The translations under genes were made by a program, and so were the position numbers. A stretch of DNA of 60,130 nucleotides from the NCBI GenBank assembly GCA_016748015.1, contig JAAOMT010000198.1:46797-106926 (forward strand), read 5' to 3'. Within the stretch, counting starts at the first letter, position 1, and each line of letters begins with the position of its first letter. Shown piece after piece: positions 12,855 through 53,255 of the stretch. The notes beneath the pieces are model-generated. The model was not told the origin of the DNA. It worked only from the letters and a program-made list of their open reading frames with translations, and did no database searches. Source of the DNA: Geosiphon pyriformis. Lineage: Eukaryota; Glomeromycota; Glomeromycetes; Archaeosporales; Geosiphonaceae.

Positions 12855-14309
12855 CTGAAGGACCCTGTTCCTCATTGGTTTACTTTGGTTTGTGACTTTT
12901 TGGATCAATCTTCTATTTCTGGTAATTTGCATGTTGAAAGTTTGCAGGCTATAAATGTTTGTAGCTTGGATGTGGTCTCCAGATTAAACCAGTGTCTCTT
13001 TTTTGCAAATATAAGAGTTGTAAGTGTTTATACTGATGGATTGTTAAAAAATTTAGGTTCATGTGAAATGAAGTGCAGTGCTGCTGCTTACTTCTCGAAT
13101 CTGGATCTAAATATTGGTGCTAATATTAATGGATTGGTATTTTTGACTATGGTGAAACTGCAGGCAATTGCTTTGGCTTTAGAGTGTGTTCCCCCTGACA
13201 GTTCAGTGGTGGTTTATTCAGACAGTCAGGCTGCCTTGGATGCGTGTATGGCTGAATTTGCTCTGGTGTCTTTGGATTTCCACAACTGTTACTGGATGGA
13301 GCAGTATGACATTATCAATTTAATTAGAGAAAAGCAGCTTGATGTTTCTTGGCATAAGGTAAAAGGACATTCGGGTGTTATAAGTAATGAGCATGCTAAT
13401 AAGTTAGCCAGTCTGGCTGCAAACTCTTCTTTGGCACTTTCTGTTTTGGTTAAAGAGAGATTTATCAAGGCTAGCAGGGTGGTGGTGTCTGAGAACGTTT
13501 GTCATTTTACTTATGAGATTTTTAGGTCTGTTAATTATACTTGCTGGGAAGTTGGTCCTGGTTTTAAAGTTATTGATAATAGTTTATTTGGTGATGTGGA
13601 CTGGTTTTGTACTGCTTCAGTATGGCATTTTGACTCTCATATGACAACTGGCTTTACCAGTAAATTTACGACTAGTTTGTACTCTTATTTTTTAAAGGCT
13701 CTCTACTACTGTCTCCTGGTTGCTGTACAGAAGCATTTGTATAGTAAAGTCTACCTGAGTGTCTCATGTTTGCACTGTGGTGAAATGGAAAGTTCTGACC
13801 ACTCCTTTGTTTGTATGTTTGACTTTAATGTTCATAAAAGCATTCTTAGATCTCATCTGGCCAAGTGGTATTGTGTTTCTGAATTGGGCTTACATTCATC
13901 TCGTGTTTTACAGATGCTCTTTTTGTGTACATCTGATAATGTGTTGTATACCACTGTGGACAAAGACTTTGTGTTCAGAGATTGGGTTCAGGAAGCTTTG
14001 TTTATTCTGGGTGATGCCAAGGTTGCAGAAAAATTTATTGTTGATTTTTTTCAAGAATTGGGTGCTGCTCACCACATGGATATTTGGTTGATTAGAGCTA
14101 AATATAAGGCTTTAATAAAAAAAGATGGTTTAATTCCACTTGATGGTTCTGTATATTCTGTGACTTGTGATTTGTTATATATGTTTTCTGCTGGAGTAAT
14201 TAGATTGTTTGAGATTGCTGAAGCAGTTGGTGTCTGCTTTGGTTTTTGTAAACATTGCTGCTTTTTTTCTGGTATAGATGATGTGGTTTCTGTTCTGATA
14301 GATTTGTAG
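12855..14309 (+). pseudogene. LINE ORF2 C-terminal part: RNase H and CCHC region (5'-truncated copy A)
   Basis: A 484-codon frame is open from the very start of the non-AT segment, without its own start codon, and stops at 14309. This is the pattern of a 5'-truncated LINE insertion. RNase H landmarks: VYTDG (first Asp), a KLQAIALALE helix where the catalytic Glu would lie but Lys is found, VYSDSQAALD (third acidic position), and WHKVKGHSGVISNEHANKLA, where the last catalytic Asp reads Asn. Downstream lies CLHCGEMESSDHSFVC, a C-X2-C-X7-H-X3-C zinc-binding motif. CpG is very rare (about 7 in 1.45 kb by eye), and many Cys/His codons stand where Arg would be plausible. There are no stops, but the catalytic site is damaged, so it is treated as a pseudogene. 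Confidence 0.88.
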
Positions 14310-14440
14310 TGTTGCTCTGATCAGTCCGAGTGACTGGTCACATGTAGAAAGTGCATAATTAGCACCTAGTTTAGATCACTTAGTTTGATGTATTGTACTA
14401 GATGGCTTTTGGATCTCACTCATTAAAAGTTAATAAAAAA
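14310..14440 (+). repeat. LINE 3' tail with hairpin, copy A
   Basis: It begins one base after the stop codon. A perfect hairpin spans 14318-14340: arm TGATCAGTC, loop CGAGT, arm GACTGGTCA. The conserved block acatgtagaaagtgcataat follows, then cacctagtttagatcactta, and the tail ends in an A-rich stretch near 14430-14440. The same tail closes the elements ending near 49831 and 53250 and, more decayed, those near 19570, 21240 and 23400. Confidence 0.85.
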
Positions 14441-15119
14441 AAAATATATAACAAAAAAATAATTAAAGAAAAATTCAATATGCAAAATTAATTTTATAAA
14501 TAATTGAGTTATTATTTTTTATATTAATGATTTTATAATTTAATAATTGATATTATTTTTATTTTTTATTCAATATTTATTCAATATTTTTACAAAGATT
14601 AATAATATACAAATCAAAAAAAATAGTAATTGAAAATATAAGTAAATTAAAATTATTATATTAATCTTGTAATTAATTATATAATTTAAATAAAGATAAT
14701 TTAATTTTAGTAAAAAATAATTTTTATAGTTTTAAAAATCTTGTTTATCTATTTTCAAAAAAATTAATAATTAGATTAATAATTATATCATTAATTTAGT
14801 TAATAATCAAATTAATAATTAAGTTAATAACCAAGTTAAGTTATTAATTAAGTTAATAATTACATTAATAATTAATTTTAAAAATAAAATAATTAATATA
14901 TATAATATTAATAGTTAATACATATAACTAAATATAAATAAATAAATAAAAACTAAGATATTTAATCATAATAATAGTATAACTTTTGAAAATACTTAAT
15001 TAAAAGTTTTTTAAATCTTAAAATTATAATAACATATTTTTAACAATAATAAAAATCAGTTAGTTTTACAATAAAACAAGTTTAATTATAATTTTTAAAA
15101 ATATTTTTTTAAAATAAAT
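14441..15119. other. AT-rich stretch between LINE copies
   Basis: Almost pure A/T. At 14755-14880 it holds imperfect tandem copies of a roughly 13-bp unit like attaataattaag. A related array in the opposite orientation is at 53715-53850. Confidence 0.5.
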
Positions 15120-18100
15120 AGTGGTCTCAATTTTGGATTTATACACTAATACAACTTTGAAAAAAAGACTGGTTTAGTCTTATAAGATTAATTTAATAGT
15201 GGCTAACATTTATAATACCAATATATTTATGATTCTAAAAGATAACTTCAATAAAAATAATTCTAATTACAGTATTAGTTTTAGGAAATTTCTAAATCTG
15301 AGTCTGTTTAATTTTTCAGTGGCTTTTTTTTACACAAATTTCTTATATAGTTTAATTCTAAAAAAGTTAAAAAATACATAGACTTTGTTTTGGTTAATAA
15401 TAGTCTTTGTAATTTATGTTTTAATCAACAAGTTTACTGTTTGGAGAAGTTTTTTAACACTAATTACTTGGTTATTTCAGTGGATATTAGCTTAAAAAAG
15501 CTAATTAACTCTTAGCTTAATTCTGTATACAAAATAGTCATCAAAAAAAGATGAAAATTTAAAGTCAGTAATGTCAATAAAAAAAGTCTGAAAAAAGTTT
15601 AAAAACATATTATTGGCTATTGCTTTGGCTGCTACTAATGACTTTAACAAGTGTAAAGAAAAACTTAATTTTAATAAAATGTAACATTTATTCTATCAGA
15701 TGGTTTGCTTTATTGCTGAAACTATTCTTTTAAAAACATGATACTGAGATAATAAAATAATCAAATATGCTGTCTTTTCAAAATCTTATAAGTTTGAATT
15801 ATTGGTATTAAAGATCTTGAAAGTATACAAATCAAAAGATTTAAAGATGTTTCAAATGTTGCTTAACAAATGAGTTTGTTTGAATTCTGTTTAGACAACA
15901 AAACTCAGAAATTTTTTTGATGTTAATAGTAGTAAAGTTTTGATTAAACAATTGTTAACTTATTTTAGAAAGGCTTATAAGTTTTATAAAATATCAGAAG
16001 CTAAAACTACTAAGAATTTTTATATTAAAACTGTTATTGTCAAATATATGGAAGCTTTTGCTAATAATAAAAGTCAAATAATAAGTAGTATACTAAAAAA
16101 ATCTTTCAAAAAGGTCATGTTAAACTATTTGGTATACAATAATAAATTAATTTTGGACTTCAATACAGTTATATACAAAGTTAATTTAATAATAGAAAAT
16201 TAGATGAAGAAATATATAGTTAATTTTAATATTTTTTTTATTAACAAAAACAATATTTACTTTTAAGTTATATAGCAGATAATGTATTTTCTAATATAAT
16301 ATTTCATATAAGTTTTAATGAATTTTTATTGGTGATTAGAAATTTTTCTAATAGCAAAACTGCTAAAATATTTAGTATTTCCAATAAGCTATAGAAACAC
16401 TATAACAAAATTGTTTTGAAGCTTCTCTTGTGTTTACTTAATTTGTGCTTAGTAACTAAATTGGTTTCTGATGTTTGAAAAAAAGCTTGAATATTCATGA
16501 TTCTAAAGTCTTATAATTAGAAAAACATCTTAATAAACATAAAACTTATTGTTTTTATCAAAATAGCAAGAAAAATTTTCTTAAAAATCTTGTCTGATTG
16601 TATTTCTGTAGCTTGCAATAAACATAATGTTTTGTGTAAAGACAACTTTTTGGTTTTAAAAAGCATTTCAATTTAATTTTCCATTTTTGCAATTGGGTCA
16701 GTAATTAAAAATGTTTTAAAAAAAAAAATAATCTGACTGGTGCTTTAAAACATGTAAAAAGCATATAATTCAGTAAATTAACTACATTTGAAAAACAGCT
16801 TAATTCAAATTAAAATGTGTGATAAATTTATTAAGTTTTTTGGTTATATTTATAATGGCTGTATAAATAGAGTTATAATAGATTTTAGGTTATTTAAAAG
16901 TTACAAAATTCATAACAGGCTAAATTAAAAGAAGATTTTTTTACCTCTTTTTTGGAAAATCTTTTACAACTTTTTTTTATGTGAAATAAAAAGGCAGAAG
17001 TTTTTGTTTGAATACTGTATTGATTTCAAGTTTGTTATTAAGACAGACAGAATTAAATCAAATACAGATCTGATCTTCTATTTGGCAGTTAATATTTTTG
17101 TGAATAATACAATTTGGGTTAGTAATTATTATATAATAATACAAAATATATTGAATATTGCTAATAAATACAGACAAAACAATAATTATTTCAATCAATC
17201 TAAGAACTAGCAATATTTTTTTAAACATAAACAGGCTACTTATTTTGATTGCAAAAGCAAACAGAACTTATTGATACTTGAGTATTTTTTTGTTAATTAA
17301 GAGCTTTTTTGGTCTAAGTTTAAGAATAATAAATTTAAATATGAAGTTTTTTTTGTTCATGGTTTTGTATAAAGTTATTTTGAATAAACAGTTTTTTTAT
17401 TTGATTTTAACTGTTTTACAACCTATTATTGAATACAGAATTCAGTTCAGTTTTATTAGCAAAAATTTATGTAAAAAATAAGACTGTTTAATCAAGAAAA
17501 AGTTAAAATCCAAAACTGGTTTATTTAGAGATTTTTTTGGTAAAGCTGTTTACTATTTGTTTTTGTATAATTTAAGATCTTTTAATCAGATGCAGATAAA
17601 AAAAAGTGGCATCAATAATGAATTTTGTTAATAAGGATGATATTTTTGGCTGGTTCTTTTAATATAAATTGCTAAATTTATAGATTTTGGATTAGATCCC
17701 TTAGAATTTTTTCAATTCTTTATTAAGTTAAAGATTAATTTAATAAACAATTTTTTGGCTAGTGTTATTAAATATTTTTGACCAATAGCATATCTATGGC
17801 CAATGGTATATTTAGCACTTTTTGTTTTAAGTATAACACTTCTGTTATAAATATTTTGGGTCAAATAGAATACTTTTGGGTTTATAAGTTTTTGAAACAT
17901 TTTGGTATTATTTTTACTGACCAGTTTTTAAATAATTATAAAGAGTACTTTGCTTAAAAAAAATTTTATTGGTAAAAACATTTGAACTCTAAAGATTTGA
18001 TTTTTTTTAGTTTATACAAGTTTTAGAATTTGTTAAGAATGGCAGTCTAGTCTAATGTTTTTTTTTTACTTCTAAAAATTCTTTTAACACAAGTATAACA

Positions 18101-19430
18101 GATATGTACAGTTTTGATATTGTTTATTCTGAGTTAAAAAATGCATCTTTGTTTGAGATCTTAATCTATACTAATAGTTTTATTAGGAACTTTAGATCTT
18201 TTAATGCTGTAGATAGCACAACCACTTACTTTTTTGATCTAAACTTGTCTATAAAAATAAAAATTTATGAATTGTTATTTTTAATGTTGGCTAAATTACA
18301 GACTATTGTTCTAGCTCTTGAGTGTATTTTAGCTTACTTCAAAATAAAAAATTTTTCTGATAGTTAGATCTTTTTAGATATATATTAAACTGAATTAAAA
18401 CTAGTAGTTCCTAATTTTTACAACAGATGTTAGATTGAATGTCACTGAATCAACAACATGGTCAGAAATAAAAATATTTTGGTGTTATGAATTAAGATGA
18501 AAGATTATTCTAAAGTGTTAAACAATAAGTATGTTAATAAGTTGATAGATTAGATTATGTTTTTAGAAGTTGTTTTTCTGGTTAACATTAAAAAAAATTT
18601 TAATGGCTGATAACAAAGTAGTATTTGGCAATGTTTGTTATTTTATAAGGAATATGAATAATACTGTAAGATGTTTTTAATAAAAAACTGAATCTGGTTT
18701 TGGTGTTGTAGATTTTTTCTGTATTAACAACTTTAATTGAAAACACACAGCTTCTGTTTAATATTTTGACTTTTATATAGCTGTTAAATACACAAATAGA
18801 ACCACTTCTGATTTGTAAACATACTTGATAAAAGCTTTACATAAAAAATTGTCAATGGCTGTTTAAAAGTTTTTATATAATTATAGATATTCAAGTGTGT
18901 TGTATGTATATTATAATAAGGTGAAATTTTTAGATCATAGTTTTACTTACAGCTTAAATCTTTCTATTTATCAAGAAATATTAAATAAACACTATTTGCT
19001 GTAAAGATCTATAACTGGTGCAAATTTTGCTTTATTTATAGTTTTTTGGTTGTTGGCTAAATATATATTGGATATTGGCAAATATATAGTTTTGTACAAA
19101 AACTTTATTTTAGAGAATTGGTTGTTAGAGACTAAAGCTTATTTCAATAATGTTAAGTTTGTCACATCCAAATTAATTGAGTTTGTTTGAAATTTGATTG
19201 TTGACTATAGAAAGTGAATTTGGGTTCCTAATCTAAAACTTTAGGCTAATATAAATTATAAAGAGTTGTTAATTAAAGATAGCTTTATATTTAATGCTAT
19301 TTATGATCTATCAGCTGGGATTTTAGATGATATTGTTTATTTGTTAAGAATTAAGAAAGATATTGCTGTTGATTTTGGCTTAAAAATTGGTTATTTGTTT
19401 TTACTAAGACAATTAAAGATATTTTAATTA
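15120..19430 (+). pseudogene. LINE ORF2 relic with RT and RNase H (copy D)
   Basis: A long, heavily decayed ORF2, readable in pieces with many in-frame TAA/TAG and frameshifts. Near 17085-17150 a frame reads FVNNTIWVSN, the RT palm box F-V-D-D with both Asp codons (17103-17108) turned to AAT. Further on, 18104-18370 reads YTNSFIRNF, then FLMLAKLQTIVLALEC and a final FSDS. This matches the RNase H segment of the copy at 12855-14309 nearly residue by residue, again with Asp to Asn at the first catalytic position. Segments at 15199-15380 and 15940-16200 are open and could belong to the region before the RT, but this is not proven. G and C have been lost almost everywhere. Confidence 0.8.
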
Positions 19431-19570
19431 ACATAGTTATATAATATTGTTTTAATTAATTAAGTGGTTAATTATATATAGCAAATATGTAAATTATATT
19501 TAATTTAGAACTCTAAATAGTTGTATTGTATTAAATAGTAATTAAGTTTCACTTATAACAAAAAATAAAT
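19431..19570 (+). repeat. LINE 3' tail, copy D
   Basis: A decayed version of the 14310-14440 tail. The hairpin position is 19453-19474, with arms TAATTAAT and GTTAATTA and loop TAAGTG, then a degraded gcaaatatgtaaatta block. Every G:C pair but one of the better copy's stem is now A:T here. Confidence 0.65.
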
Positions 19571-20889: not shown

Positions 20890-21240
20890 ACAAAATTGGT
20901 TGCTTTAATTATAATTGAGTTTGTAAAAAATTTTATTATTAATCACAAAATTAGTATTTGGTCTTATAAAACTAAGTTTAGAATTAATAAAGAAAAAAAT
21001 AACTTGATTAGATTAAATAATTCTATATTGTTTCTGATTTATAGTCTGTTAAACATTTTATCTGCTAATATAATAAGATTATTTAGTATTAATAAAGCTT
21101 GTAATATTAGTTTTAATTTACTTAATCTAGTTTTAATTGATCCAAATAACTAGTTATATGTAAAAAGTATGTAAATTACATTTAGTTTAGAATATTTAGT
21201 TGTTATATAATACTAGATAGTAATTAAGTCTTATTTATTA
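20890..21240 (+). pseudogene. LINE ORF2 C-terminal fragment plus 3' tail (copy E)
   Basis: The frame 20896-21153 is open and aligns by eye to the last 85 residues of the 12855-14309 copy: the pair EFVKNF..NHKISIW versus DFFQELG.AHHMDIW, then LSANIIRLFSI versus FSAGVIRLFEI. The 3' tail follows, with arms TAATTGATC and AACTAGTTA, loop CAAAT and a conserved tatgtaaaaagtatgtaaat block. It is a severely 5'-truncated insertion. Confidence 0.75.
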
Positions 21241-23229: not shown

Positions 23230-23440
23230 CCAAACTTTGGATAAGTGAGTTTATTTTGACATAAATTAGAGTGGCTGCTTATATGTAGAAAGTACATAAT
23301 TCATATTTAATATTATATATTAAATTAATAGACAGTTTAAATAGTGGTTGGATTACAGTTTGTTAAAACAATAAAAAAAAGATTAAATGTTTAAAGTTAT
23401 TCAATAAAAAAAAGATTAAATGTTTAAAGTTATTCAATAA
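23230..23440 (+). repeat. LINE 3' tail relic (copy F) ending in a 33-bp tandem duplication
   Basis: It contains the tail block atatgtagaaagtacataat (23280-23299). The hairpin region is poorly conserved. It ends with two exact copies of a 33-bp unit starting caataaaaaaaagattaaat (23369-23401 and 23402-23434) and the start of a third. No ORF2 sequence is readable in front of it. Confidence 0.6.
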
Positions 23441-26591: not shown

Positions 26592-26695
26592 GCAAGGCGA
26601 AACCGAAATTTTTATCGTTTAAACTTTATAAACTTTTGCCAGAGACTCCAAAGATAAGATCACAATTAATAAATTTTACTCAAAATTTGGAGAAA

Positions 26696-27890
26696 ATGTT
26701 AAAAATATCAAGAATCAATATACATCCATTTCCAATTTTTACTAGTTTTACTAGTTTTTTCTACTTAGTAGCATTCCTTTTGCTACTCTCTTTTCCATTC
26801 TTATTAGCACAAAATTCGGCCCCAATTTCAACCCTAACCCAAGCTGATATACAAAGGATATTCCTAGAAGCAATCCCTGGCGCTACACAAGAGCAAATTA
26901 ACCAAGTACTGTCCTCAATACAACCATTTATCGCTTCGACACCAATTCCCCAACAACCCGTTGAAGCTCCACCTCAAACTCAGGATGCTCCACCTCAAAC
27001 TCAGGATGCTCCACCTCAAACTCAGGATGCTCCACCTCAAACTCAGGATGCTCCAACTCAAACTCAGGCTGCCCCAGTTCAGACAGGTAATTTTCCCGGT
27101 ACTCACAATTTTTTGATTGTTTCTTTAGCTCGCGGCATGATTGTATCATCAATGATGCATATCAGCTGCTGAAAATATCGAACAATCTGAATTACAAATA
27201 GAAACCCCTGAATCACCAGCCCCACCCCCAATTGAAACTCCTGTTGAACAACAACCAGCCCCGCAACCACCACCAACTGAAACACCTGTTGAACAACAAT
27301 CAGCCCCGCAACCACCACCAACTGAAACACCTGTTGAACAACAATCAGCCCCGCAACCACCACCAACTGAAACACCTGTTGAACAACAGCCAGCCCCGCT
27401 ACTAACAGACACCCCAGTGCCTGAAACGAGTGCTTCTCAAAATTCTGCTAATGCTGTATTTTCAACTTCTACAGATTCAATTACTGCTACTTCTACACCA
27501 ATTGATGGATCAACGCCAACACCAAACGATACATCAATGCCAACACCAACTGATACTTCTACACCAACCGATGCATTAAGCGATACATCAACGCCGACAT
27601 CAACTGATACTTCTACTTCAACCGATACTACATCAACCGATGATACTACCTCAACAGATTCTACATCATCAACAGATTCTACATCATCAACAGACTCTAC
27701 ATCATCAACAGACTCTACATCATCAACGGACTCTACACCAACAGAAACATCAAGTGCTCAACGTCGAGTTTCATTGGAGGTTCTCGGATCCACCGGTCTA
27801 TTTGGAATCATTGGATCAAGTGGTTTGGCAATTTGGGTGATAAATTTTTTGATTGGATTTGTTAGCTTTTCTGCTATCGTTTCTGTTTAA
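26696..27890 (+). CDS. secreted mucin-like, probably GPI-anchored cell-wall protein
   Basis: Two exons, 26696-27086 and 27166-27890; the intron is 79 nt, gtaatt..atcag, and joins a single frame of 371 aa. The N-terminal signal peptide ends near LLAQ. Then follow about 60 ordinary residues (DIQRIFLEAIPGATQEQINQ) and three tandem arrays: a 7-residue unit APPQTQD repeated about five times, a 15-residue Pro-rich unit containing PAPQPPPTETPVEQQ repeated about four times, and Ser/Thr/Asp units such as TDSTSS repeated about five times. The C-terminus is hydrophobic after a small-residue stretch, as for a GPI signal. The Ser/Thr-rich part should be heavily O-glycosylated. A likely role is the cell surface or the host interface; no enzyme domain is present. 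A start 60 bp upstream is not ATG, so 26696 was chosen. Confidence 0.88.
26971..27060 (+). repeat. 21-bp coding minisatellite
   Basis: About four to five tandem copies of a unit that starts gctccacctcaaactcag, coding for APPQTQD. The copies are nearly identical at nucleotide level, so the array is young or kept homogeneous. Confidence 0.85.
27223..27400 (+). repeat. 45-bp coding minisatellite
   Basis: About four tandem copies of a 45-bp unit containing ccagccccgcaaccaccacc, coding for PAPQPPPTETPVEQQ. The two middle copies are almost identical. Confidence 0.85.
27651..27745 (+). repeat. 18-bp coding minisatellite
   Basis: About five tandem copies of a unit like gattctacatcatcaaca coding for DSTSST. 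Confidence 0.85.
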
Positions 27891-42935: not shown

Positions 42936-43390
42936 ATGGATTTCGACCATTATGTTGCCGATTATCAATTGACCTCTGATCCAAAAAATTGGAGCGCTCT
43001 AGATTGTCTAAGTTATCTCAAAGAACACGTAGATTTTAGCTCTGATAGCAAAAATGACATCCTTAAGGCGTTTAGAAGAAGACTTAAGACGGCCAGTCAA
43101 TCTACAGCAATACTAGCTGGACCCAAAAAGTAGGCAGGAAGATTACATGCGACCGCCAAAGAAAGTTTCGAGAGAAGGGAAATCATTGACTTTTTTGAAA
43201 AACAGGACCAAGTATTCGCGATGGTGTGTAATTGTCCGTTTGCAGGATTGGTTTGTTACACTATATTTCAATAACTATTATTTATAGCGAAAAAATGATA
43301 GAGATGTTTTCCAAGCCGTTGATGGCGCAAAAGCAGCGGTCGCAAAATCTGCAAAAACGCAACTTGAGAGTGAGCACCACCTCGTTTTTG
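42936..43390 (+). pseudogene. unrecognised gene fragment, arm 1 of a large inverted repeat
   Basis: ATG at 42936 opens a frame containing DPKNWSALDCLSYLKEHVDF, then RRRLKTASQSTAILAGPKK. The frame stops at TAG 43129-43131, where the inverted copy has AAG. It continues in frame with AGRLHATAKESFERREIIDFF and QDQVFAM up to a plausible donor (gtgtgtaatt). A phase-0 acceptor ending ttatttatag leads to RKNDRDVFQAVDGAKAAVA. So this is a spliced gene copy with one nonsense change. I do not recognise the family. The region 42976-43390 is repeated in inverted orientation at 43546-43951. Confidence 0.65.
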
Positions 43391-43545
43391 TTTTTCAGCA
43401 GGATATATGTACTTTAGCTTTTCATATCGATATTGACATGATTTAAGACGTTAGATGGGCCTATAACAGAAGGCCATATCAGTGTTGTTGGGCATAAGCG
43501 TGTAAGTCAATCGTTCTCATTAATTCATTTGTTTCTATGAAATGG

Positions 43546-43951
43546 TAAAAATGAAGTGGTGCTCATTCTCATAAGTTGTGTTTTTGCAGATTTTGCGACC
43601 GCTGCTTTTGCGCTATTAACGGCTTGGAAAACATCTCTATCATTTTTTCGCTATAAACAATAGTTTTTATTGAAAAATAGTGTAACAAACCAATCCTGCA
43701 AACGGACAATTACACACCATCGTGAATACTTGGTTCTGCTTTTCAAATAAGTCGATGATTTCCCTTCTCTCGAAACTTTCTTTGGTGGTCGCAAGTAATC
43801 TTCCTGCCTTCTTTTTGGGTCTAGCTAGTATTGCTGTAGATTGACTGGCCGTCTTAAATCTTCTTCTAAACAAGGATGTCATTTTTGCTAAAATCTACGT
43901 GTTCTTTGAGATAACGTAGACAATCTAGAGCGCTCCAATTTTTTGGATCAG
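43546..43951 (-). pseudogene. unrecognised gene fragment, arm 2 of the inverted repeat
   Basis: On the minus strand it repeats arm 1 with well over 90 percent identity by eye: the same ALDCL.YLKEHVDF, TASQSTAIL and ESFERREIIDLF segments and the same intron. It lacks 9 nt and, a little further on, 5 nt relative to arm 1, and the 5-nt loss shifts the frame to a TAG. Upstream sequence differs from arm 1 but keeps an open frame beginning MVSYARMVSPDPKNW. Both arms are therefore broken, in different ways. Confidence 0.65.
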
Positions 43952-45962: not shown

Positions 45963-47149
45963 TAAAAATTTTTAGAAATTTTTGACAAAAATTAATTATT
46001 AAGTATCAAGTTATAGATTTATTATTTATTTTAATTCTCAAATAATTACTTATAATATTGCTATTATATTAATCATTATTTTTCTAAAATTATTACTATA
46101 TTATATTATAATTAGTTAATTTATTATTTTATAATTTTAATTAAATTTTTGAATCATAACATTATTTATTATTTTAAATATAACTGAAATTTTTAACAAA
46201 AGTTTATTAATAATTATATTTAAATTAAAATTAAAATTTTGTAGGTATATTTTTATAATACTTAATAATAATAAAAATTTACAAAAATAATTTAACTTGT
46301 ATAAAATTTTAATAACTTAGTTCATAAAGAATTTTAAAAAATATTTTAGAATTTTTAAATAAAAATTTAAAATTAATACTATAAAATTATAATCAAAAAT
46401 ATTAATAATTTTTTGTTAATAAAAAACTATAAATAAAAACAAAAAAATATTGTTAACATACTACTAATAATTAATGTCTATATTTTATCATAAAAAAAAC
46501 CAAATAAGAAATAAAAACCTATTTTTTAATATATATATATAAAATATTGTTTATTAAACTTAAAAAAGTTATTAAATTTTTTAATACAACTTATTAGCTT
46601 ATTATTAAATATATAATTATTTAAAATATAATTATTTTATTTGTATTTAATACATAAAAGCAATATTAAACTAGTTTAGCACAAATTTAAATCTTTAAAG
46701 ACTGAAATTAAATAAATAAATGTTTTTTTAAAAACAGCAAATTCAAAATAAACTATAATATAATATATTTACATATTGTTATTAATAAAAAAAACAAAAA
46801 TTATAATAAATAAAAAATAGCCAATAACAAAATTAAAAATTATTAAAAGCATATAATATTAAAAATTTTAGAAATTTTAGTAGAAATTTTAGAAATATTA
46901 GTAAAAATACCAGAAATTTTAATAATAACTTAAAATAATTTAAGAATTTTATATTACAGAAATTTATAAATATATAGCAAAAATATTAAAAATTAAAAAA
47001 TATTAGAAAAAAACAGATAGGATTATTTTAAAATCAGTTTAGTTACTTTTATTTTAATTAAATTTTATCTTATTTATTAATTAATAAGTTTCAGAATATT
47101 TTATTAAAATTTATATTATAATTATATTAATGTTATTAATATTTACTAT

Positions 47150-47574: not shown

Positions 47575-49664
47575 AAATAAAAAAACTTTTTGTTTTCTTA
47601 ATTTTATAATCATGACCAGAACAAAGAATAAAAAAGCTATACCTAATATTTTTCCTAAGATATCTAATAAAATTTCAATCAGAGGAGCTCTTTCTGTTGT
47701 AGAAACAACTAGGCAAAACATTTTAAAAGCCTTTTGTTTACTTAGTAATTGTAAAAAGCTGCTTTTGATAACTACTAAAGCAATTTTCTCTTCTTTGACT
47801 GGTTTTTTACCAGTCAAAATTCCCTTAAAAAACACACTTGGATTAGTTCCAATGTTGCCTTCACCTCTACTAAAAACCCAAAAGTATTTAATAATAGACC
47901 AGTTAATAAGTTGGTATTCTCTTCTATAGCTTTAACATCTGGTGCTTTTAACATCTTCTTTTCAAAGAAAATAGTCAAAAAGACCAAAAGTTCAGAAAAG
48001 TGAAGGCAGTTACTTGTCTCTACTATTGTTATACCAAACCTCTTTATGATTCCAAATGAGATTTCAAATAAGATTTTTGTTATATTATCTGGTATATCAT
48101 CCAAAATAGGCCAAGATCAACCATTGGTTGTGTTGCCAAATGTGGTGTTTTCTGGCAGATTATTGCCAGTTTTAGAAGCAAAACAACCATCTCCTGTGAT
48201 GTCACCTGTTCTTGAAAACTGGGCTGACCAAATAGAAACTAAATCATCTTTTTTTTTGGTTTTTGGTGCTGTTACTAGTAGTGCTTGGGAAATTATTACT
48301 AGTTGTCAAAGGTTTGCTGAATGAATGGCCTTTATTTTGGTGTCTAGTACTATTTTTAAGATCAAATTGGCTTATGTTAAGGCTGCTTTTCAGTTAATAC
48401 ATGGTTTTTTGGGTGCAAAGTCAGTATTAAAAGACAATATAAAGCTGTTTTATGTGGAGTTTACTTTTTAAATGTCTTTGGAAGCTGTATTTTTGGTTGA
48501 ACTTACAAGCTTTGTATATTTGGCCACCCTCAAAATTGCCAAGTTTTTGGTGGTTTCTGAGTCTGGTTCCTCTTCTGCTACTGTTGTACTGTATGATGCT
48601 TTTGGGTGTATCTGCTGCTAATATTAAGACAGCTCTCAGTGTATTTGGTGGTATTACTTGTGTTGTGCTGAAGTTTGCTGGCATTTGATAATATATGGTG
48701 GTTTATTTTGAGAAGCTGGACTCTGCTGTGTCTGCTTTAAATCATTGGTTAGTCTTGGTAGGCAAGAATAGTATTAGAATTCTCCCTTTGATAAATCAAA
48801 ATGAGACTATTTTGTTTTGTAATAGATTTAAGACCAAGTTGGTCAATCTTCCTTCTGAATGTACAGCTTTTGAAATTAGTAATATGATTTTTTAAGTTGG
48901 TCATCAGTTCTCAAGCTGATTTGAATTCTGTTATTGTCAAAACTGGTACACTGAAAAAACGCTGTATTTGATGAGAAACTCCTGGTTGTTAGTGTTGTTT
49001 CAAGTATTAAGAGTTAGATCATCTGGTTGCAGACTGTAAGATTTTTTTATCTTTTCCTTCCAAGTTTTCCAAGGTGTTTACATCATACTTTATTAGTCTT
49101 AAGTTTTATGCCAAGGCTTCTGCTTTCTTGAACTTCTCTGGATTTCTATCTTTGTTATCTCTTGTCTCTTTTCCAGTTATTGCTGGTGATCTTTTGGTGC
49201 TGTCCTGATTATCTTCTTTGAAATTTGATTTAACTAAGCTTTTTGTTTTAGTTGAGTCTATTGTTAAGCTTATTGACTTTTTGGTTACAACTTTTGAACA
49301 GTTTATTAATAATGATTTGGTTTTAAGTAGTATTCTTGGTCTTAGAATTAATAAAGTTTTGGTGCATATAAGTTGCTTTAATAAGACTGTTAATAAGTTG
49401 AGAAGAGATGATCTTTTTGAAAAAAGAGTGCTATATGAAAAATATTAATATGTCTGGTAATTTAGAGTATTTAATTGGTATGAATGATAATATATTTTCT
49501 AACTTAATGTCTCTTTGGGCTCATAAACCTATTCATATTAAAACTGATTTTTTGAAAACAGTTGAATGGCTGGTTGAATTGGTTTTTAATAGTGTTACTT
49601 TGTTTAGTATTATTCAGAAGATATTTTTTTTAGATAAGTTTTTTTTTAAGATTTCAATATAATG
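47575..49664 (+). pseudogene. LINE-type ORF1 relic (copy B)
   Basis: Colinear with the 51012-53137 ORF1 copy from the leader (ttaattttat before the ATG) to the last codons, about 80 percent identical by eye. Most differences show A or T here where copy C has G or C. Open pieces are 47612-47929, 48046-48324, 48452-48688, 48695-48895 and 49218-49662, separated by stops (often TGG to TGA) and indels; part of the zinc-knuckle region is missing. It reads through the A-run where copy C is frameshifted, so the ancestral ORF1 was continuous there. Confidence 0.8.
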
Positions 49665-49782
49665 TGTCCTTGATTGGTCTGAATAATTAATTACGTGTAG
49701 AAAACACATAATTAGCACCTAGTTTAGATCACTTAATTTAATGTATTGTACTAGATAGCTTTTGGACTGCACTTATTAAGCA

Positions 49783-49831
<49 letters not shown>
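49665..49831 (+). repeat. LINE 3' tail with 47-nt poly(A), copy B
   Basis: Hairpin at 49671-49693, arms TGATTGGTC and AATTAATTA, loop TGAAT. The tail then follows the 14310-14440 copy closely (cacctagtttagatcactta and gtattgtactagat), ending in 47 uninterrupted A (49785-49831). It follows ORF1 directly with no ORF2. Confidence 0.85.
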
Positions 49832-49833
<2 letters not shown>

Positions 49834-50987
49834 AAATTGCATAAAATAATACAAGTTTTTTTATATAAAATTTGAAAGATTATAAACTATAATACTAATT
49901 AAAAGCATATATAAAAGAATATAATATTAGTTTTTTAAATTTTATATTTGTTTATTAATATTAACTTTAATAATAAATATAAAGTTTTTTTATAAAAATT
50001 AACTATTTAAAGATAATTAGATTAGTAGTTTTAATACTTTTAAACTTTATTAATATTTTTTGTTAAAGACTAATTAATTGTATTTGATTATTTTATCTTA
50101 TTAAATTTAGCTAATATTAATTTTAATACTAATTTAAAAAAATTAATTAAAATTTTTTTAATAATAAATTTTTAATTAAATTTAATATTAACTTGTTTTA
50201 AATTAGTATTTATTAAAATTTTCTTATCAATAACCAATTTTTTAGTTTGATTAAGATTAAATTCAAAAATAAATATTAATTAAATAATTTTATAAAATTT
50301 TAAGAAAATAAAAATCTTTTTAAACTTATTTATTTGGTAAAATAATTTTTTAATAATTCTTAACTTTTTATTCAAATTTTTATTAAAAACAATTAATATA
50401 TTAATATTTAACATAAATAATTTTACAAATTCAAAATTTTTTTTTAATTAACAAAAATTATGATATTTGTATTAACAGAAATTGAAAAAAAAATCTGATA
50501 TTTTATTATTATTTATATTATTAATAACAAAAAAATATAGATATTTTAACAGATTAAAAATTATAATATAAGTTTAATATAGTATTATATTATTCATATT
50601 TTATCTAAATTTTCAATGTTTAAAGTTTTATTGATTTTTTTTATCTTATTTTCTATTTTATTTTTTTATAACTTATATAAAACTTGATTTAAGATATTTA
50701 AAATATTTAAAGCCAAAAAATTTGCAAATAAATCAATTATAATAACAAAATTATTAAGCTTTTTAGCTTTTTTGTTAATATTTCTATAAATAAAGTTAGT
50801 AAAACTAATTTTTTTGGATATTTGAATAGGTATTTCTATTAATTTTATCTGTATTCAAGATTTTAACAGAAAAAATCACTAGTTTTATTACTTAAAAAAA
50901 TTAGTATTGGCAAAAATAATTATAATTTAGTTTTAAAAATAAAAAACTTTTTTATATTTATTTATAATTATATTATTTAAAAATTAA
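49832..50987. other. AT-rich relic DNA between two ORF1 elements
   Basis: No readable protein and no similarity found to the upstream repeats at 45640 or 47150. Probably older retroelement DNA. Confidence 0.45.
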
Positions 50988-53137
50988 AAAACTCTTTGTC
51001 TCCTTAATTTTATGACCACAACCAGAGCAAAGAGTAAAAAGGCTGCACCTGATATCTGTCCTAAGATATCTAATAAAATTTCAATCAGAGAAGCTCTTTC
51101 TGTTGTAGAAGCAACTAGGCAAAACGTTTTAGAAGCCTTCCTCTTACCCAGTAATCATGAAAAGCTGCCTTTGGTAGCCACTGAATCAACTTCCTTATCT
51201 TTGGCTGGTTTTTCACCAGTCAAAGTTTCTTCAAAGAGACACATTTGGGTTAGTTCCAGTGTTGCCTCCACCCCGACTAAAAGCCCAAAAGTTTTTAATA
51301 ATAGACCAGTAAATAAGCTGGTCTTCCCTTCTATAGACTCAATACTTGGTGCTTCTGGTACTACCTCTTCAAAAAAATAGTCAAAAAGACCAAAAGTTCA
51401 GAAAAGTGGGGGCAGTCGCTTGCCTCTGCTATTGTTACACTGAACCCCTTTGTGGTTCCCAATGAGATCTTAGATGAGATCTCAGTAGTATCATCTGGCA
51501 CGTTATCCAAGATAGGCCAAGATCAACCACTGGCTGTGTTGTCAAATGTGGTGTTTTCTGGTAGATCATCGCCAGTTTTAGAAGCAAAACAATCTTCTCC
51601 TGTTGGGTCATCTGTTCTTGGGAACTGGGCTGATCAAATGGAAACTGATTTATCATCTCCTTTAGTTTCTGGTGCTACTTCTGGTAGTGCTTGGGAAACT
51701 ATTACTAATCATCAAAGGTTTGCTGGGTGGGTGGCCTCCACTCTGGTGCCTGGTGCTACTTTTAAGATCAAATTGGCTCATGTTAAGACTGTTTTTCAGT
51801 CTGTGCATGGTTTCTTGGGTGCTAAATCTGTTTCAAAAAACAATGTGAAGCTTTTCTGTATGGAGTTTGCTTCTCAACAGTCTTTGGAAGCTGCGTTTCT
51901 GATTGAGCTTACAAGCTCTGTTTGTTTGGTCACTCTCAAAATTGCCAAGTCTTTGGTGGTTTCTGAATTTGGTTCCTCTTCTGCTGCTGTTGCACTGCAT
52001 GATATACCTTTGGGTGTGTCTGCTGCTGACATTAAGTTGGCTCTCAGTGTGTTTGGTAGTGTTACTCGTGTTGTACTGAAGCCTGCTGGCATTTGGCAGT
52101 ATATGGTGGTTTATTTTGAAAAGTTGGACTCTGCTGTGTTTGTCTTGAAGCATTGGTCAGTTTTGGTGGGCAAAAATAGTGTTAGAATCCTCTCTTTAGT
52201 GAATCAAAATGAGACTATTTTGTTTCATGATAAGTTTAAAACCAAATTGGTCAACCTTCTCTCTGGCTGTACTGTTTTTGAAATCAGTGATATGATTTCT
52301 CAGATTGGTGGTCGAACATGTTTCATCCCTTGTTCTACTAATTTTGGTCATTGTTCCCAGTTTGCTTTGGTTACATTTGACTCTCAAAGTGATTTGGATT
52401 CTGTTGTAGTCAAGACTGGTACTCTAAGGAAATACTATATCTGGTGAGAAACTTCTGGCTGCTGGTGCTGTTTTAGGTGTCAAGAAATGAGCCATCTGGC
52501 TGTAGATTGCAAGATTTTCCCACCTTCCACTTTCAAGGTTCTCAAGGTTTTCAAGTCTTGTTTTGTGGGTTCTGCTTCATATGCCAAGACTGCTGTTTCT
52601 TCTGGTCTTTCTGAGTTTCCTCCTTTAGTGGCTTCTTCAGCTGCTTCTGCTGCTAATCCTGCTGTTAGTTCCAGGTTGGACTCTTTGAAAAAGCAGATTT
52701 CGGATTTGGCTGCTCTGGTTAAGTCTATTGTTGAGCCTGTTGGTTCTTTGGTTGCTTTGGTGTCTTGTCTTCTTGATGATAATGCCATTAAGACTGTTCA
52801 AGTCGAGAAAGATATCATTTTCATGAAGAGTGCTGCTAACAATTTTTCTAATCTCATGGTTGGAGTTTCCAAGAACATTGCTTGTCTTAGATCTGAGGTT
52901 GACTTTGGTGATATGGATTATGATGGTGTTCTGGCTGCTAAGCCTTCTTTTTTAAGTGAGAACACTATTGAGCGTGTCATTGCTTTGTGGCGAATATCTG
53001 GTGCTGAAACCAAGGACAATATTGAGTCTACTAGATTGTTTCTTAGTGAGTTTATTTTTGACTCTAGAAATCTAAATGGTATCATTGAAAGAATTTGTGG
53101 GTTGGAGTTATTCTTACCTATTTTTGATTCAGTGTAG
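50988..53137 (+). pseudogene. LINE-type ORF1 (RRM-like plus CCHC), copy C
   Basis: ATG at 51012; the reading frame originally ran to the stop at 53135-53137 (about 708 codons). It is broken twice. One base is lost before the 7-A run at 51371-51377 (copy B keeps the frame), and one Trp codon is TGA at 52445-52447. Predicted features: a basic N-terminus, two RRM-like segments (FKIKLAHVKTVFQ.. and HDIPLGVSAADIKLALSVFG..VTRVVL.. to MVVYFEKLDSA), then a C-X2-C-X4-H-X4-C zinc knuckle CFRCQEMSHLAVDC (52469-52510), and a helical C-terminal part. RRM followed by CCHC is the layout of type I LINE ORF1 proteins, which bind element RNA as chaperones. CpG is very rare here (about a dozen in 2.1 kb by eye). 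No reverse transcriptase follows. Confidence 0.85.
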
Positions 53138-53255
53138 TGAGTCCTTGATTGGGCCGAGTGTCTGATCACATATAGAAAATACATGATTTACACCTATAAT
53201 GTAATCCCTTTTATGGTATCATAGTTTAGGTAGTATTTGGGTCTTGCTTGTTAAA
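53138..53255 (+). repeat. LINE 3' tail with hairpin, copy C
   Basis: Hairpin at 53146-53168: arms TGATTGGGC and GTCTGATCA, loop CGAGT, nine pairs including three G-U. It is followed by the degraded block catatagaaaatacatgatt and an AT-rich end without a long poly(A). It begins right after the ORF1 stop, and tgtagtg around the stop is also shared with the 14309 copy. Confidence 0.8.

Follow-up and report, generated by a model that had tools for sequence, protein, structure and literature searches.

ORF1-only LINE-like elements sharing a folded 3' tail with complete LINEs in the fungus Geosiphon pyriformis

To our knowledge, long interspersed nuclear elements (LINEs) that carry open reading frame (ORF) 1 without ORF2 are known mainly from mammals (HAL1) and from Drosophila telomeres (HeT-A). 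HAL1 (half-L1) is described as a non-autonomous element that encodes ORF1 only and arose several times from L1 (PMC5753468). HeT-A, which encodes only gag and is the most abundant element of its group, is thought to use the reverse transcriptase (RT) of TART or TAHRE, and the conservation of its gag suggests negative selection (PMC5537684). In pairs of LINEs and short interspersed nuclear elements (SINEs), a 3' stem-loop is common to the SINE and its partner LINE, an arrangement that serves as a model for tail recognition (PMC3747384). In powdery mildew, RT-RNase H sequence was reported downstream of the EKA/Kryze ORF1 repeats in 1 of 34 examined (PMC4641428). ORF1 proteins of type I, which combine RRM and CCHC motifs, are reported from I, Jockey, R1, Tad1, plant L1 and L2, and are known for modular exchange (PMC4120745). 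Here we describe two ORF1-only elements, copies A and B, from the genome of the fungus Geosiphon pyriformis. They lie in a stretch of 60,130 nucleotides (nt), hereafter the window, that covers positions 46,797 to 106,926 of the forward strand of contig JAAOMT010000198.1 (assembly GCA_016748015.1).

We consider it probable (about 0.86) that these elements belong to an old, diversified family of non-autonomous ORF1-only LINEs similar to HAL1 and HeT-A, which would borrow their RT. This agrees with the original prediction of a HAL1-like element that supplies its own RNA-binding ORF1 protein and obtains RT through a shared 3' hairpin, the borrowing itself being our reading of the shared tail. It is supported by the structure of the copies and the constant junction between ORF1 and tail, by target-site duplications, by selection on ORF1 and by covariation in the shared tail. 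As in HAL1, ORF1 is the only protein encoded, and the elements appear to move as non-autonomous derivatives. However, the fungal ORF1 is of the RRM and CCHC-like type, whereas that of mammalian L1 is of the coiled-coil type; the fungal elements share a specific folded tail with complete LINEs; their ORF1 and that of the complete elements compared have no more than 25-33% identity; and their copies exceed ORF2 copies 3 to 1 in a sample of tails. The combination of RRM_1 and CCHC-like motifs in ORF1 with RNase H in related ORF2s corresponds to ORF1 type I; the host being a fungus, the source would not be mammalian L1 itself. The copies resemble HeT-A as non-LTR elements (lacking long terminal repeats, LTRs) with gag/ORF1 only, but they are dispersed between unrelated flanks, in part with target-site duplications, and are not arranged head-to-tail at chromosome ends. 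As in LINE/SINE pairs, a non-autonomous element shares the 3' tail of a partner LINE, although the fungal passenger encodes a protein under selection. Since ORF1 is open in the inferred subfamily states and under purifying selection, the elements differ from SINEs, which have no protein-coding capacity. The EKA/Kryze repeats are likewise numerous copies of a fungal LINE ORF1 without ORF2; they were interpreted as truncated copies or effector genes, and the consulted part of that report mentions no shared tail (PMC4641428). These repeats may perhaps represent an unrecognised parallel to the fungal half-LINE.

At both window sites we observed the predicted layout of leader, ORF1 and LINE tail without endonuclease or RT, the tail of about 110 nt directly following the ORF1 stop (Table 1). 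The ORF1s had been called full, which holds for their length but not for their integrity: copy A carries many stops and a deletion, with a longest stop-free stretch of 118 codons, and copy B has a frame change near 51375 and a TGA at 52445. In a self-comparison of the window, copies A and B showed 81% identity only up to 48901 and 52309, respectively, while the tail and A-run of copy A were 82% identical over 134 nt to 14340-14473. Other A-type copies align with copy B as far as about 52753, and the last ~385 nt of ORF1 (about 52753-53137 in copy B) differ in kind between the two window copies. In a tree of the 3' ~450 nt of ORF1, copy A fell into subfamily B2 and copy B into subfamily A1; their tail types also differ. 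As the copies belong to different subfamilies, local duplication was ruled out as the origin of either window copy from the other. The two copies, predicted to share a junction, thus agree in layout but not in the bases of the junction, which are shared among genome copies of a single subfamily. Well beyond the zinc knuckle, ORF1 ends in sequences that are unrelated between subfamilies A and B, as after a C-terminal swap.

The RRM and CCHC segments predicted in ORF1 received unequal support. In copy B, RRM_1 barely exceeded the Pfam cut-off and the zinc knuckle, whose spacing was judged by eye, stayed below it. An AlphaFold2 model of the ORF1 protein was of low confidence (mean pLDDT, predicted local distance difference test, 41.8). 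A search of PDB with this model gave no match at E 0.001; its top three matches were tandem-RRM proteins, but at E 0.011-0.016 and with template modelling (TM) scores below 0.3. A sequence search of solved structures with ORF1 gave one match, at E 0.026.

The structure of copies was then surveyed in the whole assembly (124.7 Mb, 406 contigs). The chitin synthase family PF01644 was matched twice in this assembly and in none of 14 control genomes, which indicates a fungus. A search with ORF1 yielded 1175 first-look candidates; 40 were scored, and the 20 best of the 39 outside the window were fetched and read. In 16 of these 20 loci, chosen by ORF1 similarity alone, the tail directly followed ORF1, and in one it followed after an insertion at the junction; in three, ORF1 was broken by what appeared by eye to be an LTR retrotransposon, and its end was not visible. 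ORF2 followed this ORF1 in none of the 20 loci read (0 of 17 resolved). With the tail following ORF1 without ORF2 in 17 of 20 loci, the elements are not autonomous LINEs encoding endonuclease and RT. The leader was kept in 18 of 20 loci, and the flanks preceding it were unrelated, as judged by eye from the alignment.

Sequence patterns in which Y replaced C and R replaced G were counted genome-wide with a tolerance of two mismatches; reversed controls gave 0 to 1. The tail core was found at 1922 places, the 5' start of ORF1-only elements at 663 (reversed control 0), their 3' ends at 438 (273 of type B and 165 of type A) and the ORF2 3' end of the 12855-14430 family at 42. The figures of 438 and 42 do not represent the ratio of ORF1-only elements to all complete LINEs, and most tails fall outside the end patterns, by which other subfamilies and decayed copies go undetected. 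To avoid selection by ORF1, we took the first 40 of 100 listed zero-mismatch tail places in contig order, with up to 480 nt upstream, regardless of what preceded them; this sample is restricted to the commonest tail type. ORF1 of this family preceded 30 of the 40 tails and ORF2 the other 10, with none unassigned. For L038, one of the 30, ORF1 was assigned from a weak match in translation at the end of a contig, and L040 and L068 are duplicates of one 5'-truncated copy including its flank. The outcomes named as refuting the original prediction, that most copies consist of ORF1, ORF2 and tail or that the window pair arose by local duplication, were thus not observed: ORF1 directly precedes 30 of the 40 sampled tails, and the aligned copies lie between flanks that are unrelated by eye.

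An unlikely alternative is that complete LINEs repeatedly gave rise to independent deletion derivatives and that no ORF1-only lineage sustains itself. It would fit the several subfamilies with distinct ORF1 C-termini and tails, the repeated origin described for HAL1 (PMC5753468) and the divergence of the ORF1s of complete families among themselves, down to 28-35% identity. However, the front of ORF1 is common to the six ORF1-only subfamilies read (76-83% nucleotide identity; subfamily C not included), as is the leader in 18 of 20 loci, and none of the 17 resolved ORF1 loci continues into ORF2. Moreover, the ORF1 proteins of complete LINEs reach only 25-33% identity to those of ORF1-only elements where aligned. 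Between the complete elements L028 and L030-L032 the identity is 50-61%. No element with ORF2 and a close relative of this ORF1 was found in the limited sample.

We then turned to complete LINEs with the same tail. The ORF2 family of 12855-14430 gave 458 candidates in the genome, of which 40 were scored. Four ORF2 loci were fetched with upstream DNA; three of them (L030-L032) are complete LINEs of ~7 kb with ORF1, ORF2 and tail, all containing stops, and the fourth is 5'-truncated. ORF2 of L030-L032 was recognised by alignment, without Pfam. By coordinates, an ORF1 of complete LINEs lies 3.75-5.5 kb upstream on the same strand at at least 19 of the 40 ORF2 places; the remaining 21 are undecided, since scoring in the ORF1 search was also limited to 40 places. 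Among related elements, Pfam detected RVT_1 in L012 (E 1.4e-14) and, below the cut-off only, in L028; RNase_H was found in L012 and at 12855-14312 of the window. The stretch given of L028 had no Pfam match to an endonuclease; motifs in it, judged by eye, are presumably those of an endonuclease.

Three ORF2-derived copies closed by the same tail had been predicted in the window. The one at 12855-14440 was borne out by RNase H and tail, and its ORF2 has 84-85% identity to L030-L033, among them the three full elements with ORF1 and ORF2. In that at 15120-19570, only 16104-17804 and 18756-18932 align to related ORF2s (64-72% nucleotide identity), followed by a weak tail, and the outer parts were not confirmed. 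For 20890-21240 the tail was recovered, the ORF2 was not.

These complete elements bear on the alternative of a split LINE, in which ORF1 and ORF2 would normally sit on separate elements that require each other as a pair. The 30 to 10 proportion of ORF1-tail to ORF2-tail copies in the sample fits such an arrangement, as does the fact that this ORF1 was never joined to ORF2 in 17 resolved loci, but ORF2 elements with the same tail have an ORF1 of their own, seen in three of the four fetched and by coordinates at the 19 or more places above. This largely refutes the split LINE, which had been offered as an alternative in the original prediction and which we regard as very improbable.

Borrowing of RT would depend on the shared tail. 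Twenty tails, drawn from both element types, were aligned; the alignment gave a fold of two helices with 17 pairs, in which 92.4% of cells are paired compared with 21-47% in slid controls, and compensatory change was seen at 10 pairs. On three of five covariation measures the alignment exceeded all shuffles (0 of 500 as high). For subfamilies A2, B1, B2 and C, identity between their tails and the nearest tail of a complete LINE is 78-91%, and in the tail tree the two kinds intermingle. In cases chosen after viewing this tree, tail and ORF1 pointed to different subfamilies. Three of the 10 A2 copies (L037, L047 and L066) combine an A2 ORF1 (identity 0.86-0.88 to A2, 0.48-0.49 to B1) with B1-like tails (0.71-0.76 to A2, 0.83-0.84 to B1). 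Conversely, L064 has a B1 ORF1 (0.50 to A2, 0.86 to B1) and an A2-like tail (0.89 to A2, 0.76 to B1), and L034 is a second, weaker case of this kind. The tails of L064 and L070 are 96% identical, while their ORF1 ends are unrelated. The sequences thus indicate that tails were swapped between ORF1-only subfamilies, which would have occurred by template switching between RNAs or by gene conversion.

Selection on ORF1 was assessed in its last ~450 nt in 42 copies of seven groups (A1, 2; A2, 10; A3, 2; B1, 19; B2, 4; B3, 2; C, 3). Of the 30 tail-sample places with ORF1, the set used 23; L038, L040, L049, L057, L059, L068 and L072 were excluded as weak, truncated, divergent or duplicate. ORF1 is open in the inferred subfamily states. 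Purifying selection was detected between inferred group states in nine of nine pairs (ratio 0.31-0.61, z 2.6-5.8), where the ratio compares amino-acid changes with the expectation from each pair's own mutation spectrum; wrong-frame controls gave 0.87-2.64. Since no ORF2-linked version of this ORF1 was seen, the most likely place of selection is in ORF1-only masters, although each subfamily could instead have had a complete ancestor, unseen here, that left the signal. Compared with the group majority, the A2 (10) and B1 (19) copies carry mainly C-to-T and G-to-A changes (0.12-0.18 per C or G site) in these ~450 nt, with A-to-G and T-to-C changes at 0.01-0.03 and transversions at 0.001-0.007. 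There was no CpA preference (CpG 18/60 in A2), so that the pattern is not that of canonical repeat-induced point mutation (RIP).

Purifying selection between subfamilies would also be expected if a LINE ORF1 had been domesticated as a host gene family, as proposed for the EKA effectors of powdery mildew, and ORF1-derived genes have a fungal precedent (PMC4641428). Yet the LINE tail is retained in all 17 resolved copies, the copies share a leader start between unrelated flanks, target-site duplications occur in part, one copy is 5'-truncated and most are decayed, which makes domestication improbable in the extreme.

Comparison of the junction between ORF1 and tail base by base showed it to be constant within subfamilies. 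A query covering the ORF1 end and tail of copy B (52600-53255) was matched end to end (1-656) by the best 40 of 393 candidates, a choice biased toward full matches, with identities of 90-100% including the window and 90-93% at the 39 places outside it. In type B, the gap between ORF1-end pattern and tail core was 41 nt in 21 of 22 pairs, formed from the 28 of 43 ORF1 ends that had zero mismatches and lay on contigs covered by the tail list. Element starts were followed by an ORF1 end or tail after 1950-2250 nt in 34 of 39 pairs and after 3.0-3.1 kb in five, the pairs being those of 100 listed starts with a partner within 6 kb in a partial list of ORF1 ends and tails. The longer spacing was considered as an element variant and rejected, the one case read being a ~1 kb solo-LTR-like insert; the other elements longer by ~1 kb perhaps owe their length to similar inserts. 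At L074 (1-1501), an insert of ~1 kb that starts with TGTTAC and ends with GTAACA, probably a solo LTR, lies at ORF1 position ~1010, and apparent LTR retrotransposons lie inside the ORF1-only elements L009, L014 and L016.

Among 18 copies with both ends known, target-site duplications were found in seven at score 11, compared with 2.9% of mismatched flanks, and in 11 at score 9, compared with 14% (rank test p 4e-6); this test permitted extra bases between duplication and element. Together with A-runs and the 5'-truncated copy L040/L068, these duplications are those of a LINE inserted by target-primed reverse transcription. Consistent with the prediction of a propagating structure rather than an accidental deletion, ORF1-only elements are common genome-wide, with constant junctions, target-site duplications and selection on ORF1. 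Duplication, segmental or in tandem, of a few copies that had arisen by accidental deletion, to which the L040/L068 pair duplicated with its flank and the second element 27 nt after the first in L025 could be credited, is refuted as a general explanation by the unrelated flanks of aligned loci, the target-site duplications and the spread over many contigs, and has next to no likelihood. In L025 (2842-2869), the second ORF1-only element begins 27 nt past the tail of the first, as a tandem insertion.

Several results weigh against an ORF1-only lineage that borrows RT through its tail. A stricter duplication test, which demanded contact with the element start, failed (2 of 18 at 8 nt or more, compared with a null of 11%); no target-site duplication was clear for copy A, and for copy B there was at best a weak A/T duplication. 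The tail structure was derived from the same alignment on which it was later scored, and two of the five covariation measures failed against shuffles, with 63 of 500 as high for pairs with double-sided changes and 433 of 500 for pair types. The A1, A3 and B3 tails are types of their own, with 62-69% identity to any complete-LINE tail compared and no partner found among these; five further ORF1-only tails without a subfamily assignment are 68-76% identical to complete-LINE tails. As for ORF1, the C-terminal part of L012 is only 28-35% identical to other complete LINEs, so that low ORF1 identity alone does not separate an ORF1-only lineage. Selection was weaker with majority-rule states (ratio 0.36-0.94, z 0.3-5.0), which contain one stop each in B3 and C. 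Raw pairwise ratios had medians of 0.77-1.10, and such weak selection is expected because the copies are mostly dead. Finally, a first codon-position test on raw columns gave the opposite result, shared variants being rarer at third positions than singletons, which we attributed to recurrent C-to-T change.

Taking these points into account, we propose that ORF1-only LINEs would make an RRM/CCHC-like ORF1 protein from their RNA and that this protein would package the same RNA. The folded tail at the 3' end would be recognised by the ORF2 protein, an endonuclease and reverse transcriptase, of complete LINEs with the same tail, and the RNA would be copied into the chromosome by target-primed reverse transcription. 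Use of a partner's ORF2 protein, to which the shared covarying tail points indirectly, is thus predicted, as is packaging in cis, and the elements may have been active recently or may be so at present. That selection keeps ORF1 suggests that ORF2 protein could be shared, while ORF1 protein would have to come largely from translation of the RNA itself. In its fullest form, to which we give even odds, the proposal is of a long-lived gag-only LINE lineage whose ORF1 split long ago from that of complete LINEs and gave rise under selection to at least seven groups, with C-termini and tails swapped to keep matching the LINE that supplies RT: a protein-coding satellite parasite outnumbering its helper.

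Table 1. Features of the window, by position.
Feature	Position	Strand	Evidence and remarks
5'-truncated ORF2 (RNase H and C-terminus), complete-LINE family	12855..14312	+	Pfam RNase_H E 3.7e-10
Tail closing this ORF2 copy	14318..14427	+	tail profile 88.5 bits
Heavily decayed ORF2 copy, another subfamily	15120..19440	+	aligned parts only; outer limits from the original prediction
Decayed tail	19461..19555	+	tail profile 24.2 bits, E 6e-6
Decayed tail	21133..21240	+	tail profile 38.4 bits
Further decayed tail	23269..23365	+	tail profile 28.1 bits; weak
Copy A, whole element	47584-49831	+	leader, ORF1 remnants, tail, A-run
Copy A, 5' leader (element start)	47584..47611	+	leader also present in 18/20 genome loci
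Copy A, ORF1, subfamily B2	47612..49662	+	decayed; many stops; small internal deletion near 48905
Copy A, LINE tail	49668..49779	+	tail profile 84.6 bits; shared 3' RNA structure; folded
Copy A, closing A-run	49785..49831	+	direct reading
Copy B, whole element	50990-53255	+	leader, ORF1, tail
Copy B, 5' leader	50990..51011	+	direct reading, locus alignment
Copy B, ORF1, subfamily A1	51012..53137	+	open except one frame change, one TGA
Copy B, RRM-like region	52253..52411	+	Pfam RRM_1 E 3e-4, 21.0 bits (cut-off 20.7)
Copy B, CCHC-like zinc knuckle	52469..52513	+	Pfam zf-CCHC E 0.027, 15 bits (cut-off 20.8)
Copy B, LINE tail, A1 type	53143..53255	+	tail profile 77.8 bits

Elsewhere in the window, an inverted repeat of ~410 nt with 91% identity spans 42976-43951 (arms 42976-43389 and 43547-43951). 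An ORF at 26636-27172 encodes a proline/threonine-rich protein with tandem DAPPQT-type repeats, and DNA repeats were noted near it at 26963-27084 and 27222-27402.

Among the matches listed in literature searches, from which subscription journals were mostly absent, none had a title or abstract opening that described ORF1-only LINEs in fungi; the nearest was the powdery mildew report (PMC4641428). Two papers on transposable elements of Rhizophagus mention LINEs and unclassified repeats, and the term ORF1 is absent from the main text of both (PMC8647823, PMC11075540). The fungal case, in which copies number in the hundreds, subfamilies are several and partners can be identified, would allow two questions to be tested: why a passenger should need an ORF1 protein of its own if RT can be borrowed, which concerns cis-packaging of RNA, and how passengers keep up with a helper whose tail changes. 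A further suggestion is that ORF1-rich, ORF2-poor fungal repeats such as Kryze be re-read as possible half-LINEs, and that part of the unclassified repeats described for Rhizophagus (PMC11075540) may be half-LINEs as well.

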